This document shows, piece after piece, positions 11,154 through 20,212 of a DNA stretch of 64,000 nt (position 1 is the stretch's first letter; every line of letters starts with the position of its first letter). The notes below the pieces were generated by a model, which saw only the letters and a list, made by a program, of their open reading frames with translations, was not told the DNA's origin and searched no databases. Made by a program: the position numbers and the translations under genes. Origin of the DNA: Pedobacter hartonius (GTDB lineage: Bacteria > Bacteroidota > Bacteroidia > Sphingobacteriales > Sphingobacteriaceae); NCBI RefSeq assembly GCF_900107535.1, contig NZ_FNRA01000001.1, positions 372,001 to 436,000 of the forward strand, given 5' to 3'.

Positions 11154-12503
11154 ATGATTACAGGAACTCAACACAACCCCAAAAAGAAACCAAAAGTTTC
11201 TCTTTTTAACCGTATTAACAAATGGCTGCATTTATGGCTGGGACTGGCTTCTGGAATCATTGTTCTAATTGTGTGCATCACTGGCTGTATCTGGGTATTT
11301 AACGAAGAAATTACCGCCCTCCTTGAGCCTGAAACGAAAGTTGAAAAGCAGGACAAACCTGTACTTACACCTTCGCAGCTTAGTGTTATTGCCGCCCGTC
11401 TTTATCCAGGTAAGGTAGTTGGCTATGCACAATATATCCAGGGCAGAACAATTGACCTGTCGCTGAGAAACCCACAGGAAAAAGGAAGACACGGCGGCGG
11501 AACTACCCTAAAGATCAATCCGTATACCGGGCAGGTAGTTGGCCGGCAAGTCCGCAAAAAGGGCGATGTAGACTTTTTCAGGTTTATCCTTAACGGTCAC
11601 CGCTTCTTATGGCTTCCTTATGGAATTGGCAGGCCGGTCGTAAATTACGGTACCCTGGTTTTTGTAGTATTGCTGGTCACAGGTATGATCTGGTGGTATC
11701 CAAAAAAATGGAATAAAGGAACGGTTGACAAAAGCTTTAAAATCAAATGGGGCGCCTCTTTCAAAAGGGTAAACCTTGACCTGCACAATGTACTGGGGTT
11801 TTACTCGCTGCTGTTCCTGCTGGCAATTGCGCTGACAGGAATGGTATATGGAATCAGCTGGTACAGCGAAGGCCTGTACTGGGCAACCAGCGGCGGCGAA
11901 AAACTTCGGGAGTTCAGGCCAGTGAAATCAGATACGGTAAATGCAAAACATTTGTATACACCGCAGCAGGCCATGGATATTGCCTGGACAAAAGTGACAG
12001 CAAAACACCCGCGTTCGGAAGGATTTTACTATTCGTTTCCAGATACTTCAAAAGCGATGGCTACGATCAGCATCACTGTGTACCCTACCGCCGGGCAGTT
12101 TTACAATAACCAGAGCTACACATTTGGCCAGCATTCACTGAAAGAACTGAAAGGTAACGGCGTATACGCAATCTCCTATGCAGCCTCTGGCTTTGGCGGC
12201 AAACTGCGTAAAATGAACTATGACATTCACGTAGGCAGCATTCTCGGCTTTCCCGGTAAAGTACTGGCCTTCCTGGCTGCACTGATAGGTGCCAGCTTAC
12301 CGATCACTGGTTTTCTGGTATGGTACGGCCGTAAATTCAAGAAAAAGAAAAACACAAAACGCCCTGCATCAGGTGCTGAGTCTGCCGGCAGCCCACATAT
12401 AGCTCTCCCGGATAACCGGCCCTCAAAAGCTGGTTATTCTTTTTTCATCGCAGGTCAAAACACACAAAAAATAATTTTTTTTATTTTACTATTGACAAAT
12501 TAA
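11154..12503 (+). CDS. PepSY-associated transmembrane protein (possible iron reductase)
   Basis: A 449-residue inner-membrane protein of the PepSY_TM family. Helices lie near residues 26-45, 163-180, 205-228 and 360-388, with a large extracytoplasmic PepSY region in between (GYAQYIQGRTIDLSLRNPQ; VDFFRFILNGHRFLW). Histidines near helix ends (LNGHRFLW, LDLHNVLGFY, YDIHVGSIL) suit haem or flavin-linked ferric reductase function, as proposed for this group. It is the last gene of the iron-type operon. The C-terminal ~45 residues after the basic KKKKN stretch look non-conserved and are encoded over a terminator and the next promoter (see findings), so the true protein may be read only rarely to the end. 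Confidence 0.85.
   Translation: MITGTQHNPKKKPKVSLFNRINKWLHLWLGLASGIIVLIVCITGCIWVFNEEITALLEPETKVEKQDKPVLTPSQLSVIAARLYPGKVVGYAQYIQGRTIDLSLRNPQEKGRHGGGTTLKINPYTGQVVGRQVRKKGDVDFFRFILNGHRFLWLPYGIGRPVVNYGTLVFVVLLVTGMIWWYPKKWNKGTVDKSFKIKWGASFKRVNLDLHNVLGFYSLLFLLAIALTGMVYGISWYSEGLYWATSGGEKLREFRPVKSDTVNAKHLYTPQQAMDIAWTKVTAKHPRSEGFYYSFPDTSKAMATISITVYPTAGQFYNNQSYTFGQHSLKELKGNGVYAISYAASGFGGKLRKMNYDIHVGSILGFPGKVLAFLAALIGASLPITGFLVWYGRKFKKKKNTKRPASGAESAGSPHIALPDNRPSKAGYSFFIAGQNTQKIIFFILLLTN
12411..12443 (+). terminator. terminator inside the 3' end of the PepSY gene
   Basis: The stem ataaccggc (12412-12420)/gctggttat (12429-12437), with one G-U pair and an 8-nt loop, is followed by tcttttttc. It is a good intrinsic terminator for the uptake operon but lies about 60 nt before the stop codon of its last gene. 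Confidence 0.6.
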
Positions 12504-12521
12504 ATTTTGTTAGTACATTTG
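12492..12521 (+). promoter_or_regulatory. promoter of the aromatic amino acid operon
   Basis: TTG at 12492-12494 and TACATTTG at 12514-12521 with 19 nt spacing match the Bacteroidetes consensus. The predicted start near 12526 gives a leader of about 235 nt before pheA, which holds the leader peptide and attenuator. Confidence 0.75.
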
Positions 12522-12574
12522 GAAAAATAAAACAATAAAAAACGGGTGCTGATCTTAAGCCCCAACAATAAAAA

Positions 12575-12637
12575 ATGAGAAACATCACTACATATTGGTT
12601 TGGTTACTTCTACTATTTTAGTAAGAGCCGGGACTGA
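12575..12637 (+). CDS. attenuator leader peptide, 20 aa, rich in Tyr/Phe/Trp
   Basis: ATG at 12575 opens a 20-codon frame ending in TGA at 12635-12637. Its residues 7-15 are YWFGYFYYF: eight aromatic residues in nine codons, against a background where such a run is very unlikely by chance. It sits about 50 nt after the predicted transcription start, and a terminator hairpin lies between it and pheA. The stop codon overlaps the segment that can form the antiterminator. It is a sensor of charged Phe/Tyr/Trp tRNA, not a functional protein. It was found by reading the leader in all frames. Confidence 0.85.
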   Translation: MRNITTYWFGYFYYFSKSRD

Positions 12638-12706
12638 TATGCAATCAAAAGAAACAAGATAAATTGTATATGAAAAGTCCCGGCCTAAAGCCGGGACTTT
12701 TTTTTT
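12627..12706 (+). terminator. transcription attenuator of the pheA operon
   Basis: The terminator has an 11-bp stem aaagtcccggc (12674-12684)/gccgggacttt (12690-12700) with a 5-nt loop and a U-run to 12706. The segment gccgggact at 12627-12635 is identical to the start of the terminator's 3' arm, so it can pair with 12676-12684 and block the terminator. A ribosome at the leader stop codon (12635) covers 12627-12635 and lets termination proceed. A ribosome stalled on the aromatic codons 12593-12613 leaves that segment free and favours read-through. Confidence 0.85.
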
Positions 12707-12760: not shown

Positions 12761-13594
12761 ATGAACACATCAGTAAAAGTAGCAATTCAGGGTATCAAAG
12801 CATCATTTCATGAAGAAGCTGCTTTCAAGTTCTTTGGCAATGACATTCAAACCATTGAATGTAACTCCTTTAAAAAGACTTGTGAGGTATTGGAAGCAAA
12901 TGAGGCCGACTATGTGGTCATGGCTATTGAAAACTCAATTGCCGGCAGTCTTTTACCTAACTACACCCTGATCAGGGAATACAATTTTGCCGTAACCGGC
13001 GAAGTCTACCTGCCGATACAACTGCACCTGATGGGACTGCCGGGCGTAAAACTGGAAGATGCACAGTTTGTAACGTCACACCCTATCGCCCTGCGCCAGT
13101 GCATCGACTTTTTTGATGATTTCCCGCACCTTAAAATTGTAGAAGGTACAGACACAGCTGCCTGTGCTAAAAAGATTAAAGATGAAGGATTAACGGATAC
13201 GCTGGCGGTCGCCAATACACTTGCAGCCAAACTTTACGGCCTGAATATCCTGGAAAGAAGAATTGAATCCAACAGCAAGAACTATACACGTTTCCTGATC
13301 CTGCAAAAGGAAAAAAATGAAACCCTGAAAGAGATCAGCAAAGCTTCGATCGTTTTCCAGGTAGGCAATCATGTAGGTGCATTGTCACAGGTGCTGACCA
13401 TCTTTGCAGAACAAAACGTAAACCTGAGCAAAATCCAGTCAATGCCCGTACTGGGCAAAAGAAACGACTATTATTTCTACGTCGATCTGGAATGGTCGGA
13501 CATGGAAAAATATGATATCGCCATTCGCCGGGCCCTGAAGTATACCGTGAACTTTAACATCATGGGCGAATACCTGAAAAACGACAAAGTATAA
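12761..13594 (+). CDS. pheA: prephenate dehydratase (with ACT domain)
   Basis: Converts prephenate to phenylpyruvate, the committed step to phenylalanine, in the cytoplasm. The 277 residues form a monofunctional enzyme: a periplasmic-binding-protein-like catalytic part (about 1-180; motifs MAIENSIAGSLLPNY and the essential Thr-Arg-Phe at 176-178) and a C-terminal ACT regulatory domain (about 193-270; VFQVGNHVGALSQVLTIFAEQNVNLSKIQS) that binds phenylalanine for feedback inhibition. There is no fused chorismate mutase; that activity is in the next gene. It is the first gene of the operon, 54 nt after the attenuator U-run. Control is therefore both transcriptional and allosteric. Confidence 0.96.
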   Translation: MNTSVKVAIQGIKASFHEEAAFKFFGNDIQTIECNSFKKTCEVLEANEADYVVMAIENSIAGSLLPNYTLIREYNFAVTGEVYLPIQLHLMGLPGVKLEDAQFVTSHPIALRQCIDFFDDFPHLKIVEGTDTAACAKKIKDEGLTDTLAVANTLAAKLYGLNILERRIESNSKNYTRFLILQKEKNETLKEISKASIVFQVGNHVGALSQVLTIFAEQNVNLSKIQSMPVLGKRNDYYFYVDLEWSDMEKYDIAIRRALKYTVNFNIMGEYLKNDKV

Positions 13595-13658
13595 GCAACA
13601 AAAAGTATATCAGCACAACAAACATAAAATCGCAAACCCCCTATTAATTATCCATATC

Positions 13659-14795
13659 ATGAAATTAAATCTTAATATCCAGCCTTTAGAGAGCTGGTTG
13701 AACATTAAAAACGAGCCGCTCATTATCTCCGGACCCTGCAGCGCTGAAACTGAAGAACAACTGCTATCTACCGCTCATTTGCTGGCCGCTACAGGTAAAG
13801 TGTCTGTATTAAGAGCTGGTATCTGGAAACCGCGTACCCGTCCGGGAGAATTCGAAGGAATCGGAAGCATCGGCCTGGAATGGTTGAAAAGGGCAAAAGC
13901 TGAAACCGGCCTGCCTACAGCAGTAGAAGTTGCTACAGCAAAACATGTGGAAGAAGCCCTGGCAGCAGGAGTAGATATCCTTTGGATCGGCGCAAGATCT
14001 ACAGCTAACCCTTTCACCGTACAGGAAATTGCTGATGCCCTGAAAGGTACAGATATCCCTGTATTGATCAAAAATCCGGTAAACCCTGATATTTCCCTGT
14101 GGATTGGCGCCTTAGAACGTATCAACAATGCAGGAATCACTAAAATCGGCGCGATTCACCGTGGCTTCTCTTCATACGAAAAAAGCTCGTTCCGTAATGA
14201 ACCCATGTGGGAACTGGCTATTCAGCTGAAAACTTTATGCCCTACTTTACCGATCATCAATGATCCTTCACATATCTGCGGAAACCGCGAACTCATCCCT
14301 TACATCGCACAAAAAGCACTGGATCTGGATATGCAGGGACTAATGATCGAATCACATATCGATCCTTCTGTAGCATGGACTGACGCCAAACAACAGGTTA
14401 CGCCATCTGCTCTGGAAGAACTGGTTTCAAGACTGAGCGTTCGTGACCCTGAATCAAACAATGCAGATTTCACAGATAAACTGGTAGAATTACGTCAGAA
14501 AATTGATAAGATAGATGATCTTCTGATCCAGAAATTAGGTGAGCGTATGGCTATCGTTGAGAAAATCGGTGAATACAAAAGAGATAACAAAGTCACTATC
14601 CTTCAGGTTAACCGCTGGGATGAGATCCTTAAAAAAGGAAGTGCATTCGCAAAAGCCTTAAAACTGGACCTGAACTTTACAGAGAAGTTCCTGGAGCTTG
14701 TTCATGGAGAATCTATCAGAAAACAAACTGAGATCATGAATGAAGGCAAAACCGAAGAGGAAATAGTTGAAGCTACATCTGGCACAAAAGCATAA
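13659..14795 (+). CDS. bifunctional DAHP synthase/chorismate mutase
   Basis: A 378-residue fusion. The N-terminal domain (about 10-265) is a KDPG-aldolase-like type I beta DAHP synthase (ISGPCSAETEEQL, AGIWKPRTRPGEFEG, WIGARSTANPFTVQEIA, NDPSHICGNR), which condenses PEP with erythrose 4-phosphate. The C-terminal domain (about 278-362) is an AroQ-type chorismate mutase (LRQKIDKIDDLLIQKLGERM, IGEYKRDNKVTI) that makes prephenate. This order is typical of Bacteroidetes, where the mutase also serves as a regulatory domain. The gene lies 64 nt after pheA. The fused enzyme supplies both the start of the pathway and the substrate for PheA. No tyrA or aminotransferase gene sits in the gap. Confidence 0.94.
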   Translation: MKLNLNIQPLESWLNIKNEPLIISGPCSAETEEQLLSTAHLLAATGKVSVLRAGIWKPRTRPGEFEGIGSIGLEWLKRAKAETGLPTAVEVATAKHVEEALAAGVDILWIGARSTANPFTVQEIADALKGTDIPVLIKNPVNPDISLWIGALERINNAGITKIGAIHRGFSSYEKSSFRNEPMWELAIQLKTLCPTLPIINDPSHICGNRELIPYIAQKALDLDMQGLMIESHIDPSVAWTDAKQQVTPSALEELVSRLSVRDPESNNADFTDKLVELRQKIDKIDDLLIQKLGERMAIVEKIGEYKRDNKVTILQVNRWDEILKKGSAFAKALKLDLNFTEKFLELVHGESIRKQTEIMNEGKTEEEIVEATSGTKA

Positions 14796-14857
14796 CAAAC
14801 AGGAAAACCTGCAGGGATTGCTCAAGCGGTTCCTGCACGCTTTACCTTTATAAAAAT

Positions 14858-16120
14858 ATGGTTAAGAAACAAAATGCAGTTGTTTCCTTTACAGGACTAA
14901 AGGATATCCATACAACTATTCATCTGACTGGTTCTAAAAGTGAAAGCAACAGGGCCCTGATCATCGCAGCCCTGAGCAAAGGAATGGTCATGGTAAAAAA
15001 CCTGTCCGATGCCGCTGATACGGTTATTCTCAACAGGATCCTGATCGGCCTGACTACTGCAGCCCTGGAAGAAAGAAGAACGGTAGATGTTGGCCATGCC
15101 GGCACAGCCATGCGTTTTCTGACTGCCTTTCTTTCTACCATTCCTGAAAAGTTTAAACTTACAGGCTCCGGCAGGATGCAGGAACGCCCTATCGGAATCC
15201 TGGTTGATGCGTTGAAAAGCCTCGGTGCAGATATCTCCTATGAGAAAAATGAAGGTTATCCTCCCCTGCTGATCAACGGCGGACTGCAGGATACCCCTTC
15301 GGAAGTTTCCATCCGGGGAAATGTGAGCAGCCAGTACCTGTCGGCTTTGCTGATCATTGCACCTACACTGCCCTCGGGCCTGTCACTGCATATCCTGGGC
15401 GGATTAACTTCCAGACCTTACCTGGAAATGACGCTGAACATGCTGGCCTCTGCAGGGATCAGACACAGCTGGGAAGGCGATACCATCCACATTGCACAGC
15501 AGGTGCATCAGGAAGCCATATTAGTTGTAGAGCCCGACTGGAGTGCTGCCTCTTACTGGTACAGCATTGCTGCCCTAGCCGTTCAGGCTGACATCATCCT
15601 GCCTAACCTGAGGGAAGAAAGCCTTCAGGGAGACAGCGCGATCCAGCAGATCATGATTCCCCTTGGTGTAAGCAGCTCCCGCAGCAAAGACGGCATTCAG
15701 CTGATCTCAGCAGCAGAACAGCCGATCATCGGGGTCATGAATTTGAAAGACTGTCCTGACCTGGCACAAACAATCATCGTTTGCGCAGCAGCAAAGGGAT
15801 TAAACCTGTCGTTCACCGGTTTGGAAACGCTAAAGATCAAGGAAACAAACAGGATCCTTGCTTTGCAAACTGAACTGGCAAAAATCGGGGTGACCCTGAA
15901 TGAGGATAACGAGGTATACACACTGAACTGTGAAGGACTGAACTTCCCTGAGAAGATCAGCATCGCTACATACGATGATCACCGTATGGCCATGGCCTTT
16001 GCTCCGCTGAGCCTGCTGATCAAAGAGGTTGAAATAGAAGATTACCAGGTAGTTGAAAAATCTTATCCTGATTTCTGGAAAGATCTGCAGCAAGCCGGTT
16101 TTACAGTACAAGAACTTTAA
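14858..16120 (+). CDS. aroA: 3-phosphoshikimate 1-carboxyvinyltransferase (EPSP synthase)
   Basis: Adds enolpyruvate from PEP to shikimate 3-phosphate. The 420 residues are full length. Landmarks are LTGSKSESNRALIIAAL (PEP and phosphate binding, residues about 23-40), the VGHAGTAMRFLTAFL loop equivalent to the conserved LGNAGTAMRPL motif, ERPIGILVDALKSLG, SSQYLSALL, and the C-terminal IKETNRILALQTEL and DDHRMAMAFA blocks. It is third in the operon, 62 nt after the DAHP synthase gene and 12 nt before aroC. The hairpin-prone 14800-14840 stretch has no U-run. Confidence 0.96.
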   Translation: MVKKQNAVVSFTGLKDIHTTIHLTGSKSESNRALIIAALSKGMVMVKNLSDAADTVILNRILIGLTTAALEERRTVDVGHAGTAMRFLTAFLSTIPEKFKLTGSGRMQERPIGILVDALKSLGADISYEKNEGYPPLLINGGLQDTPSEVSIRGNVSSQYLSALLIIAPTLPSGLSLHILGGLTSRPYLEMTLNMLASAGIRHSWEGDTIHIAQQVHQEAILVVEPDWSAASYWYSIAALAVQADIILPNLREESLQGDSAIQQIMIPLGVSSSRSKDGIQLISAAEQPIIGVMNLKDCPDLAQTIIVCAAAKGLNLSFTGLETLKIKETNRILALQTELAKIGVTLNEDNEVYTLNCEGLNFPEKISIATYDDHRMAMAFAPLSLLIKEVEIEDYQVVEKSYPDFWKDLQQAGFTVQEL

Positions 16121-16132
16121 CATAAAAATATA

Positions 16133-17224
16133 ATGGCAGGTAATACATTTGGGCATTTATTCAGGATTTCCACTTTTGGAGAATCACATGGGGAAGCCAT
16201 TGGCGTTATCGTTGACGGATGCCCTGCGCAGCTCCCTATAGCTATTGAGTTTATCCAGTCAGAACTGGACAAACGCCGTCCCGGTCAGTCAAAGATCACT
16301 ACCCAGCGTAAGGAGAGTGATACCGTACAGATCCTTTCAGGCACCTTTGAAGGGAAAAGCACAGGCACGCCCATCGCGTTGCTGATCCCCAACGAAGACC
16401 ACCGCTCCAAGGATTATGAGCACAACAAGACTGTTTACCGTCCCTCACATGCCGATTATACTTATGATGCCAAATATGGTATCCGCGATCACCGTGGCGG
16501 AGGCCGCTCTTCGGCAAGGGAGACTGCTGCACGTGTTGCCGCAGGTGCCATTGCCAAACTGCTGCTTCAGCATTACGGAATCAGTGTTTTCGCCCATGTT
16601 TCGGCAGTAGGAACAATCAATGCACCTCACCTGCAACCGCTGCCCGTTGAAGAACTGCTGGCCCAGCGTGAAGAGAATATCGTGCGTTGCGCAGATCCGG
16701 CTACAGCAAAGGAAATGATTGAATTTATTGATCAGATCCGGAAAGACGGCGATACGGTAGGCGGAAAGATCAGCTGTGTGATCCAGAATTGTCCTCCGGG
16801 ACTGGGGGAACCGGTGTTCGATAAATTACATGCCGATCTTGGAAAGGCGATGTTAAGCATCAACGCAGTCCATGGATATGAATACGGCTCTGGATTCTCC
16901 GGTAGTGAGATGAAAGGATCGGAACATAACGATATCTTTTTAACAAATGGCGACAAGGGGCCAAAAACGCTGACCAACTTTTCCGGCGGGATACAAGGGG
17001 GCATTTCAAATGGTATGGAGATCGGTTTCACTGTAGCCTTTAAACCGGTAGCTACGATTATGCATAATCAGCAAACGGTGAATGCCGCTGGTGAAGCTGC
17101 AGAGATCAGTGGAAAAGGAAGGCATGACCCCTGTGTGGTACCAAGGGCAGTAGTTATTGTTGAGGCAATGGCGGCGTTGGTACTGGCAGATCAGTTGCTG
17201 AGACACAGGGCCAGCCAGCTGTAA
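16133..17224 (+). CDS. aroC: chorismate synthase
   Basis: Last common step: EPSP to chorismate, using reduced FMN. The 363 residues contain the chorismate synthase signatures [17 protein letters not shown] near the start, the [20 protein letters not shown] block in the middle, and the C-terminal [24 protein letters not shown]. It begins 12 nt after aroA and ends the operon, and a very long hairpin terminator follows about 100 nt later. With pheA and the DAHP synthase/mutase fusion, the operon holds the first, last-two and Phe-branch steps under one attenuator, while aroB is elsewhere in the window. Confidence 0.97.
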
Positions 17225-17321
17225 GGGATATTTTAGATCATCAATTAGATGTTCAGTTCTATTGATATCTTTATCTGTAGCTTAAGATTTTCTCTATTCT
17301 ATAGATATCCGGGCTTTGCTG

Positions 17322-17402
17322 AAAAAAAGGGACCTCTCTTTCGATGCTGCCTGCTGCTGAAGCGCAGCAGAGAAGGCATCGAAAGAGAGGTCCCTTTTTT
17401 TT
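17322..17402. terminator. very long bidirectional hairpin terminator
   Basis: A 26-bp perfect stem (17322-17347 with 17376-17401) begins with seven A and ends with eight T, so it can terminate both strands. The 28-nt apical part folds again (ctgctg/cagcag). The stem is far longer than a usual terminator and may be a folded repeat element placed between aroC and the converging E1 gene. Confidence 0.8.
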
Positions 17403-17425
17403 ATAGCTGATCCTTTGGACGGTCT

Positions 17426-17649
17426 GTAGCATGACGGCCGGATTCCCCGGTCTGCAATAGGCTTAAAGCCTCCGTTTAAAAAATCCACCGGATAAATAGA
17501 TGTAACATGATGGCCGGATTCCCCGGTCTGCAATAGGTTTAAAGCGGACGTTTAGAAAATCCACCGGATAAATAGATGTAACATGACGGCCGGATTCCCC
17601 GGTCTGCAATAGGTTTAAAGCGGACGTTTAGAAAATCCACCGGATAAAC
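17426..17649. repeat. three tandem 76-bp repeats, non-coding
   Basis: Copies begin at 17426, 17502 and 17578. Copies 2 and 3 differ at one position (atgat/atgac); copy 1 differs at several. Each holds acggccggattccccggtctgc, ttaaagc and aaatccaccggataaa. No reading frame is conserved across the copies, and a 79-codon frame on the minus strand here does not repeat in phase. The array sits between two long hairpins. Confidence 0.85.
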
Positions 17650-17654
17650 TTTTA

Positions 17655-17737
17655 AAATAAATGTGTGCTGTATGACGGCCTCAGCGTTCTTTCGCGCAGC
17701 GAATTAATGCAGCCGGAATACAGTACACATTTATTTC
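17655..17737. terminator. long hairpin beyond the E1 gene
   Basis: The arms aaataaatgtgtgctgtat (17655-17673) and atacagtacacatttattt (17719-17737) pair over 19 positions with about one mismatch, enclosing a 45-nt GC-richer apex. It is the nearest structure downstream of the minus-strand E1 gene and may protect or terminate that transcript. Confidence 0.5.
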
Positions 17738-17788
17738 AGCGAAGCCAGAAAATCCCTTAGACCTTATGCTGCAATGCAAGATATCCAG

Positions 17789-20212
17789 TTAATAAATAGC
17801 CGGATATTTTGTTGAATTATGTTCATTCATCATGCGGTACACCGTTTCTACTATGTCGTCTACTGACGGTTTTGTGAAATAATCACCATCAGTACCATAT
17901 GGGGTGCGGTGTGCCTTTGCAGATAAGGTTTGCGGCTGTGCGTCCAGGTGATAATAACCGCCCTGTACTTCAAGTATCTGCTGTAGCAGGTATGCTGAAC
18001 CGCCTCCAGGTACATCTTCGTCTACGATGAGGAGTTTGCTGGTTTTCTGTAAAGAGGCAGCACACAGGTGATCTGTGTCAAAAGGCAGCAGCGTTTGCGG
18101 ATCAATAATCTCCAAAGAAATTCCCATCAGGGCCAGTTCTTCAGCAGCTTCTTCGACAATGCGGAGCGTGGAACCGTAGGAGACAACGGTAATATCTGCT
18201 CCTTCCCTGATCATTTCGGCCTTGCCCAGGGGAACAGTAAAATCACCTACGTTATCGGGCATCATCTCTTTCAGGCGGTAGCCGTTCAGGCATTCAATCA
18301 CCAGGGCAGGTTCATCTGATCTGAGCAGAGTATTATACATTCCGGCCGCCCGCGTCATGTCGCGCGGCACACAGAGGTGCAAGCCCCTCAGAGAGCCCAG
18401 GATCATTGCAATCGGAGAGCCGGAGTGCCATACGCCTTCAAGGCGGTGACCGCGGGTGCGGATGATCACCGGTGCCTTCTGCCCTGCTTTGGTACGGTAA
18501 GACAGGCTTGCCAGGTCATCACTTAAGATGTTGAGTGCGTACAGCAGGTAATCCAGGTATTGTATTTCAGCTATCGGTTTTAGTCCGCGCAGCGCCAGGC
18601 CTATACCCTGGCCTATGATGGTCATTTCCCTGATACCGGTATCAGTGATCCGCAGGTCGCCATATTTGGCCTGCAGGCCTGCAAATCCCTGGTTTACGTC
18701 GCCAATAGCGCCCAGGTCTTCACCGAAGGCCACCAGGCGCTCGTCACGCGCAAAGTTGGCATCAAAACAGGCGTTCAGCACTTCACGGCCGTCAACCATT
18801 TTGCTGTTCTCCTGATAAGTAGCGGCAGTCATCTCCACCATGGAGATGCTTTCCTTACCATCAGTGAACAATTTTGAGTTGTAACGCTCTTCATTACGGA
18901 GCTTCTCCTTTTGGTACCAGTCCATCAAGCGTTCCCTTTCTTCAGAAGTATGGCCGCGTGTGATACGGAGGGCCCTTCTTGCTGAAGAGATGATCTCTTT
19001 CCGCTGTGCGTCAGGAGTGTTTACCAGTGTGCCGGTAATCCGGGTAAGGAGGGGATTGGAAACCGCCAGGTTATTGATCAGGGCGATTGCCTCATCTTTT
19101 TCTATCTTAATATCAGCCAGGAACTCATTCCATGCTTCTTTCTGGGCATCACGTACAAATTTCCTGGCCTTGTCTTCCAGGATGCCCAGCTGCTCTTCAT
19201 CAACGATGGCAGATTCCAGCATCCAGTTACGCATCTGGCGAAGGCAGTCATATTCCTTCTCCCAGGCCAGCCTGCCCTTGTCTTTATATCTTTCATGGGA
19301 TCCTGAAGTAGAATGGCCCTGGGGTTGTGTAACTTCAGTGACATGGATCATCACCGGTACATGCTCATTCCTGCAAACCTGGATGGCCTGCTGATAGGTT
19401 TCGCATAAAGCCGGATAATCCCATCCCCTTACCTTATAGATCTCAAATCCGGCGTTCTGATCATCACGCTGAAAGCCTTTCAGCACTTCAGAGATATCCT
19501 CTTTGGTAGTCTGGTACTTTGCGGGCACGGAGATGCCATAGGCGTCGTCCCAGATGGAAATAGCCATAGGGATCTGTAATACTCCGGCAGCATTTATAGC
19601 CTCAAAGAACACACCTTCAGAAGTTGAGGCATTGCCAATAGTACCAAAGGCCACCTCATTTCCTTTGACGGAAAAGTTCTTCAGGTAATCCAGTTCAGGG
19701 TTTTTTCTATATAATTTAGAAGCATAGGCCAGTCCTACGAGACGTGCCATCTGTCCGCCTGTAGGCGCAATGTCAGATGATGAATTCTTCATTGCGGTAA
19801 GGTCCTTCCAGGATCCGTCTTCATTTAAAGAACGGGTAGAAAAATGGCAGTTCATCTGACGGCCGGCAGAAGCGGGATCGGCCTGCACATCAGGATTTGC
19901 ATATAACTGTGCAAAAAACTCCTTCATGGTACAAATACCGGTAGCAAAGGCGAACGTCTGATCGCGGTAGTACCCCGAACGCCAGTCGCCATTTTTAAAA
20001 GCTTTAGCCATGGCAATCTGCGGAAGTTCTTTTCCATCGCCAAAAATACCAAACTTCGCCTTGCCTGTTAAAACTTCCTTACGGCCCAATAAACTTGCTT
20101 GCCTGCTTTCGAAGGCAATCTTATAATCCTCGATCACAATCGTTTTAAAGGCCTCAAAACTTAATTCTGAAGCATCGATGGGGTTCGTTGTAAGTTTGTT
20201 ATTTAGCATCAT
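17789..20212 (-). CDS. fused alpha/beta E1 component of a 2-oxoacid dehydrogenase
   Basis: An 807-residue thiamine diphosphate enzyme with both E1 subunits in one chain, as seen in many Bacteroidetes and probably acting on branched-chain 2-oxoacids. Residues about 50-400 are the E1-alpha part (TPP and metal region IGNASTSEG to WDDAYGIS). Residues about 465-800 are E1-beta (FGEDLGAIGDVNQGF, TDTGIREMTIIGQGIGLA, IEIQYLDYL-like, VDEDVPGGGSAYLLQQ). The usual metal-site pair GDG...NN reads GN(194)A...D(222)D, a reciprocal swap discussed in findings. No E2 or E3 gene is adjacent. The start ATGATG at 20212 allows a one-codon shift. Confidence 0.9.
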   Translation of the reverse strand: MMLNNKLTTNPIDASELSFEAFKTIVIEDYKIAFESRQASLLGRKEVLTGKAKFGIFGDGKELPQIAMAKAFKNGDWRSGYYRDQTFAFATGICTMKEFFAQLYANPDVQADPASAGRQMNCHFSTRSLNEDGSWKDLTAMKNSSSDIAPTGGQMARLVGLAYASKLYRKNPELDYLKNFSVKGNEVAFGTIGNASTSEGVFFEAINAAGVLQIPMAISIWDDAYGISVPAKYQTTKEDISEVLKGFQRDDQNAGFEIYKVRGWDYPALCETYQQAIQVCRNEHVPVMIHVTEVTQPQGHSTSGSHERYKDKGRLAWEKEYDCLRQMRNWMLESAIVDEEQLGILEDKARKFVRDAQKEAWNEFLADIKIEKDEAIALINNLAVSNPLLTRITGTLVNTPDAQRKEIISSARRALRITRGHTSEERERLMDWYQKEKLRNEERYNSKLFTDGKESISMVEMTAATYQENSKMVDGREVLNACFDANFARDERLVAFGEDLGAIGDVNQGFAGLQAKYGDLRITDTGIREMTIIGQGIGLALRGLKPIAEIQYLDYLLYALNILSDDLASLSYRTKAGQKAPVIIRTRGHRLEGVWHSGSPIAMILGSLRGLHLCVPRDMTRAAGMYNTLLRSDEPALVIECLNGYRLKEMMPDNVGDFTVPLGKAEMIREGADITVVSYGSTLRIVEEAAEELALMGISLEIIDPQTLLPFDTDHLCAASLQKTSKLLIVDEDVPGGGSAYLLQQILEVQGGYYHLDAQPQTLSAKAHRTPYGTDGDYFTKPSVDDIVETVYRMMNEHNSTKYPAIY

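Follow-up and report, generated by a model that had tools for sequence, protein, structure and literature searches.

A probable phenylalanine and tyrosine attenuator ahead of pheA in Pedobacter hartonius and its relatives

What decides whether pheA and the aromatic genes behind it are transcribed in Pedobacter hartonius? The window (the whole 64,000-nucleotide stretch analysed here) holds four such genes in a row, and the first is preceded by a short reading frame loaded with aromatic codons and by a terminator. A sequence-only reading had proposed that this is a ribosome-mediated attenuator, a proposal that now draws support from the leader, from its pairings and from their conservation. We consider it very likely that the element is a classical four-segment attenuator of transcription, in which a ribosome would sense the charging of Phe- and Tyr-tRNA. 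Its parts and the genes that follow are these:

12491-12521, plus strand: promoter, with an ATTG(ACA) -33 element (12491-12494) and a -7 element TACATTTG (12514-12521), 19 nt apart
12544-12563, plus strand: small 5' UTR hairpin, GGGUGCU...AAGCCCC (from folding)
12575-12637, plus strand: leader peptide ORF, MRNITTYWFGYFYYFSKSRD* (from translation and aligned relatives)
12591-12612, plus strand: segment 1, inside the aromatic codons; pairs with segment 2 as the 1:2 hairpin
12619-12641, plus strand: segment 2, across the end of the leader ORF and its stop codon; its core, 12627-12635, pairs with segment 3
12637-12671, plus strand: extension of the antiterminator, AUAUGCAAU (12637-12645) with AUUGUAUAU (12663-12671) (from folding; near relatives only, by eye)
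12672-12684, plus strand: segment 3, the terminator 5' arm, of which 12676-12684 doubles as the 3' strand of the antiterminator
12690-12706, plus strand: segment 4, the terminator 3' arm (12690-12702) and the U tract (12698-12706)
12761-13594, plus strand: pheA, prephenate dehydratase with an ACT domain (Pfam PF00800, PF01842), first gene of the presumed operon
13659-14795, plus strand: DAHP synthase fused to chorismate mutase (PF00793, PF01817)
14858-16120, plus strand: aroA, EPSP synthase (PF00275)
16133-17224, plus strand: aroC, chorismate synthase (PF01264)

The leader, its codons and its genes

The leader frame, the terminator and a nine-nucleotide copy of the terminator's 3' arm, all listed in the earlier reading, are present in the sequence as claimed. 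The frame has 20 codons, with aromatic residues at codons 7-9 and 11-15 of MRNITTYWFGYFYYFSKSRD, so that the leader is rich in codons of the regulated amino acids. Exactly one ORF of 10-40 codons on both strands of the window carries eight aromatics in nine codons, and when the upstream 145 nt were dinucleotide-shuffled with the terminator kept fixed, an ATG frame of that kind arose in 0 of 20,000 trials. Conservation is stronger evidence for the leader than these shuffle statistics.

The survey covered 167 loci upstream of pheA, made up of the window, 24 named loci and 142 other genomes, with some duplicates. The named loci were assigned to the same family on the strength of the organism's name or of a pheA identity of 66% or more. 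From a draw across the order, 70 of the 150 genomes with pheA were examined, the window's genome included; outside the order the sample was non-random, with 29 of the 30 best-match loci (the thirtieth, L025, is the window's own genome), 40 hand-chosen loci and four more. Because the genome sets overlap (named and other genomes coincide, for example, in L012/L077, L013/L078 and L008/L028), locus counts include duplicates; the same genomes also stand twice as L055/L100, L075/L097 and L087/L098. Counted in this way, a leader with at least six aromatics in ten codons lies upstream of pheA at 138 of the 167 loci (duplicates included), the other 29 reaching five at most. It is found at all 100 same-family loci, at 34 of 41 from other families of the same class, and at 4 of 26 outside the class.

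Which amino acids would be read emerges from the 110 distinct leaders, obtained from 123 loci by setting aside L105, L108 and L123 (no terminator), L112 (another hairpin had been picked) and nine identical ones. All 110 hold at least two Phe and at least two Tyr codons, and a Trp codon is present in 53 and missing from 57; the totals are 455 Tyr, 425 Phe and 54 Trp codons. For alignment, diverse subsets of 43 (A1) and 50 (A2) leaders were picked by hand from the 110. In the 40 aligned leaders of 20 codons, codons 6, 7, 9, 11, 12 and 13 (Thr, Tyr, Phe, Tyr, Phe, Tyr) are unchanged or change only synonymously, and codon 8 encodes Trp in 27 leaders and Tyr in the other 13. Insertions and deletions in the first part of the aromatic run measure 3 or 6 nt; those of a single base are confined to its last codons or lie beyond it. 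Since Phe and Tyr codons are kept and the Trp codon varies, the signal read would be Phe plus Tyr; Trp was rejected as a conserved signal, and the sensor of the classical attenuator would be the charging of Phe- and Tyr-tRNA, not the pan-aromatic device with Trp that had been put forward.

The putative transcript would begin at a promoter of the Bacteroidota type, for which the consensus is TTTG-N19-TANNTTTG. A promoter scan picked up TTGACA at 12492-12497, in a total of promoter-like sites that equals the chance number, and promoter-like elements also show by eye in upstream sequences of Pedobacter and Mucilaginibacter. The small hairpin of the 5' UTR has GG..CC counterparts, of other letters and alike in shape, in several near relatives (upstream regions L001-L007, by eye); the 5' UTR of Mucilaginibacter appears too short for it. 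On the upstream side, a PepSY-type ORF (11154-12503) crosses a terminator-like hairpin at 12410-12439 and reaches into the leader promoter at its -33 element; this ORF may really end further upstream.

Downstream, the earlier reading had placed under one control pheA, the DAHP synthase/chorismate mutase gene, aroA and aroC. For pheA the evidence supports this, and for the other three gene order points the same way; the four are probably co-transcribed. In the 24 named relatives, within the DNA available, pheA is followed by DAHP synthase/chorismate mutase in 24, by aroA in 23 and by aroC in 20. A consensus scan of the plus strand from 13500 to 17900 found no terminator-like site there, and promoter-like sites in that stretch came to the number expected by chance. 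Among named pheA proteins the closest, at 94% identity, are those of P. westerhofensis and Pedobacter sp. MC2016-15.

Pairings that exclude one another

An intrinsic terminator stands between the leader ORF and the first structural gene, with a stem of 12672-12684 and 12690-12702 and nine T at 12698-12706. Upstream of it, GCCGGGACU (12627-12635), which covers the last part of the leader ORF up to the first base of the stop codon, is a copy of the terminator's 3' arm. More precisely, GCCGGGACT at these positions is exactly the start of that arm and the full complement of AGTCCCGGC at 12676-12684, which bears out the antiterminator that had been suggested from nine nucleotides. Because 12637-12645 can pair with 12663-12671, this antiterminator is longer than 9 nt. 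Any nine-mer of the 3' arm turned up upstream in 24 of 20,000 dinucleotide shuffles (145 nt, terminator fixed). The frame of L019, L021, L066, L076 and L080-L082 stops 2-4 nt upstream of the antiterminator core; with these early stops the core is still inside the ribosome footprint.

Segment 2 has a second partner. When the transcript before the terminator (12526-12660) is folded, the main hairpin joins 12591-12612 with 12619-12641, so that the control codons lie in segment 1; similar 1:2 hairpins can be seen by eye in most of the 110 leaders. Their folding energy, compared with 60 shuffles each, has a mean z of -3.1, falling below -2 in 90 of the 110 and below 0 in 109. In 50 aligned family leaders the stem counts 19 pairs, formed in 87.6% of cases against 41.6-49.6% in a slid control, and double changes occupy 22 cells against 9.4 in shuffles, none of 500 shuffles reaching 22. 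The clearest covariation turns C-G into U-A in 13 of the 50, where a Tyr codon changes synonymously and segment 2 changes along with it. In the middle helix pairing is weak, with 67.8% of cells paired and one of its pairs open in 34 of the 50 leaders, and the RNAalifold consensus retains only the inner 8 pairs.

The 3:4 stem has 13 pairs, with 94.1% of cells paired and double changes in 12 pairs (0 of 500 shuffles). The 2:3 pairing is formed in 88.6%, and the slid control in 17.1-57.5%. Within the family, double changes in 2:3 are not above shuffles (4 cells; 110 of 500 shuffles), nor do pair types (470 of 500) or the covariation score (66 of 500) stand out there.

A partner swap asked of each strand how well it pairs with its own counterpart and with those of other leaders. 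It used the first leader for each distinct terminator 5' arm, 69 of 132, the terminator finder having missed 6 of 138. Own partners pair at -14.3 kcal/mol against -10.9 for foreign ones in 2:3, and at -14.3 against -10.95 kcal/mol in 1:2, with 0 of 5000 permutations in either case, numbers that are not probabilities because the loci share ancestry. A control swap of 1:3, two segments that are not expected to pair, has no overall preference across the 69 arms (-3.95 against -3.91; 1952 of 5000), and for the 31 arms outside the family it leans weakly in the same direction (284 of 5000). The preference is an effect of averages; the own partner comes first for 8 of 69 arms in 2:3 and for 7 of 69 in 1:2, with median ranks of 14 and 10.

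An alignment of related leaders had been named as one way to check the sequence-only reading. It upholds the kept aromatic codons, the double changes in the terminator and, through the swap, the match of partners in 2:3 and 1:2; it fails to show double changes in 2:3 above the level of shuffles within the family. Taken as they stand, the comparisons describe segments 2, 3 and 4 that co-vary and keep their alternative pairings, and a segment 1 that pairs with segment 2, which is how a classical attenuator is built.

A translating ribosome as the proposed switch

In the mechanism that we propose, the 1:2 hairpin would be made first, probably pausing the polymerase and holding segment 2. With charged Phe and Tyr tRNAs at hand, the ribosome would reach the stop codon and mask segment 2 (12627-12635); the 3:4 terminator would then form and transcription presumably end before pheA. 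If Phe or Tyr were scarce, the ribosome would stall in the aromatic run and mask segment 1, leaving segment 2 free to pair with segment 3 as it emerges. The terminator being blocked, read-through would let pheA, DAHP synthase/chorismate mutase, aroA and aroC be transcribed, in a response to starvation.

Masked folding, that is, equilibrium folds with an assumed ribosome footprint of 31 nt, agrees with these states. Masking 31 nt for a ribosome that has reached the stop codon abolishes 2:3 and lets 3:4 stay: by computation the two pairings are mutually exclusive, and the 5' strand of 2:3 is covered by the ribosome at that codon. Placing Tyr7 or Tyr11 in the A site exposes segment 2 and lets 2:3 form; a ribosome stalled with Phe15 there would already shorten the 2:3 antiterminator, which counts against the model.

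The 1:2 stem is where an alternative has to be weighed. In a three-segment attenuator it would offer no protection of the terminator, read-through would be the default for an untranslated leader, and termination would require a ribosome at the stop codon. Left to fold freely, a transcript that reaches as far as segment 3 does adopt 2:3 instead of 1:2. In the window species the best fold reaches -18.1 kcal/mol with segment 3 blocked (1:2 allowed) and -23.9 kcal/mol with segment 1 blocked (2:3 allowed), and by equilibrium energies 1:2 is the stabler in only 34 of 137 leaders, 66 lying within 3 kcal/mol (the looser terminator finder of this comparison missed L138, whose terminator shows by eye). 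However, the 1:2 stem is kept with double changes, has a lower folding energy than its shuffles in 109 of the 110 leaders, has partners that match within genomes, and is transcribed first. We regard the three-segment alternative as unlikely. As a full description, the compact three-segment design of the earlier reading was dropped once the 1:2 stem was found, since this stem makes four segments, as in E. coli attenuators.

In the classical four-segment attenuator that we prefer, 1:2 may last until 3:4 forms because it is transcribed first. It may also act mainly as a pause hairpin, by analogy with the trp attenuator of E. coli, where 1:2 is the pause hairpin. An untranslated leader could give read-through, an outcome that is uncertain because 2:3 is computed to be stabler than 1:2 in the window species.

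The ribosome might conceivably halt for another reason: a nascent aromatic peptide could arrest it on sensing a metabolite, with no waiting for charged tRNA. Strong conservation of the C-terminal SKSRD among near relatives speaks for such an arrest, yet that stretch is accounted for by the base pairing of segment 2, it becomes SKSQD or SESRG, some frames stop before it, and what persists across the class is the aromatic content. We give peptide arrest a very small chance.

That the ORF is accidental, the RNA being a constitutive terminator or a ligand-binding element (riboswitch or T-box), agrees with the existence of a terminator and of structured RNA, but is next to impossible in our estimation: the leader codons are kept in frame, shuffles yielded the aromatic run in none of 20,000 cases, and a scan of the 64-kb window at Rfam gathering scores, riboswitches and T-boxes included, matched only tmRNA, on which ground the riboswitch or T-box was rejected. 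The 35 Rfam matches at a low threshold were treated as chance.

Spread, precedent and meaning

Seven loci of the class lack the leader: L105, L108, L123 and L178-L181. In the first three, of one genus (family f8), pheA lies by eye directly behind an aroA-like gene, without a leader of its own; an attenuator may stand at the head of that operon, or may have been lost. In L178-L181 pheA has other gene contexts. The four leaders outside the class (L104, L109, L111, L127) belong to the four best-scoring pheA found there (209-237 bits, the next having 182), and pheA may have been transferred horizontally together with its attenuator. Searched with a covariance model of the leader, 35 of 41 genomes give a match at E <=0.01; these include all 25 genomes of the genus, the window's among them, each with a match above 100 bits. 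Many of the hits that score under about 45 bits are probably due to chance. The model covers an element that has no Rfam match at cut-off in the window.

One of the nearest known systems is that of E. coli, where pheL is a short Phe-rich leader ORF with exclusive 1:2, 2:3 and 3:4 pairings and a terminator before pheA. The E. coli pheA attenuator (RF01859, Phe_leader) shares with the present element the four-segment plan, the short leader ORF and the terminator before pheA, but in the present leaders Tyr codons are roughly as numerous as Phe codons, and the cluster adds DAHP synthase/chorismate mutase, aroA and aroC. The RF01859 model, spanned whole, gives the leader a non-significant 22.2 bits (cut-off 55; E 0.14).

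Further putative leaders accompany this one. Ten of the further matches of the leader model were inspected and comprise six Thr/Ile leaders (L187, L188, L189, L191, L192, L196; for example MNFNTSITTIIITTGKNLRG) before an aspartokinase-like gene, two aromatic leaders (L193, L194) and two that look unrelated (L190, L195). In the window's own genome, MKTNLTITSIITTTTGELGGR and a terminator precede a gene whose domains are those of aspartokinase and homoserine dehydrogenase (L197 1352-1417, C20). These Thr/Ile leaders, in the window's genome and in the six matches, are strikingly like E. coli thrL, perhaps by convergence. Upstream of ilvD, an Ile/Leu leader MNTSFTANLNVIINLTTLLILQDNKAL is followed by a terminator AAGCGCC...GGCGCTT (L177, reverse strand, about 313-444, C18), and AAGGCGCTG, just before the stop codon of that leader, resembles the terminator 3' arm. 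A trpE-like gene is preceded by MIYNIHTWQWRGYSEKSIVVALCTL, with Trp codons, and a terminator (L176, reverse strand, 745-876, C42). Finally, MNKHLNHHLHLHHRQLWR, with a run of His, lies before hisG (L174, reverse strand, 1223-1279, C32); no terminator was found between this leader and hisG at that locus, and the control there is perhaps translational. A pattern search for runs of His codons was too unspecific to be of use. With thr, ilv, trp and his leaders present as well, attenuation would seem to be a habit of this genome rather than an isolated case.

As to precedent, attenuation of amino-acid operons in proteobacteria was reportedly the subject of a 2004 study by Vitreschak et al., whose abstract is said to mention Bacteroidetes/Chlorobi too; those attenuators share the general mechanism. 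In the phylum itself, a putative cis-regulatory RNA of Bacteroidetes, the Bacteroid-trp motif (RF01692), figures in Table 1 of PMC2864571; it has no gathering-score match in the window, nor at the locus of the trpE-like gene (L176). A 2021 transcriptome paper on Flavobacterium psychrophilum points to strong clues that amino-acid operons are attenuated through leader peptides lying upstream, and describes structured 5' elements at pheA, hisG and other genes that are common to other Flavobacteriaceae genera (PMC9723704). These candidates resemble ours in phylum and in the 5' element at pheA, a likeness of description in passages that give no sequence, leader peptide or four-segment model. Because that report holds such clues, the idea of attenuation is already in print for the phylum, and since the leader is also conserved across families of the class, the earlier view of the locus as exceptional in its phylum does not stand. 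Our search of open-licence papers turned up no account of this leader, its four-segment layout or how widely it occurs.

This is a textbook mechanism for which the phylum already offers a precedent; the case is of value for how deeply it is conserved and for what it implies for coupling. There is about an even chance, in our view, that one ancestral Phe/Tyr attenuator, converged with pheL and not derived from it, was inherited through much of the class (which we take to be Bacteroidia) and moved occasionally with pheA to other classes, and that it belongs to a set of thr, ilv, trp and his leaders implying tight coupling in a phylum whose translation does not depend on Shine-Dalgarno sequences. 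Control of this type needs a ribosome close behind the RNA polymerase, and for that reason the attenuator offers a direct genetic test of transcription-translation coupling. The comparative evidence speaks for classical attenuation as an old and common control of aromatic synthesis in the class, and not as a proteobacterial speciality.
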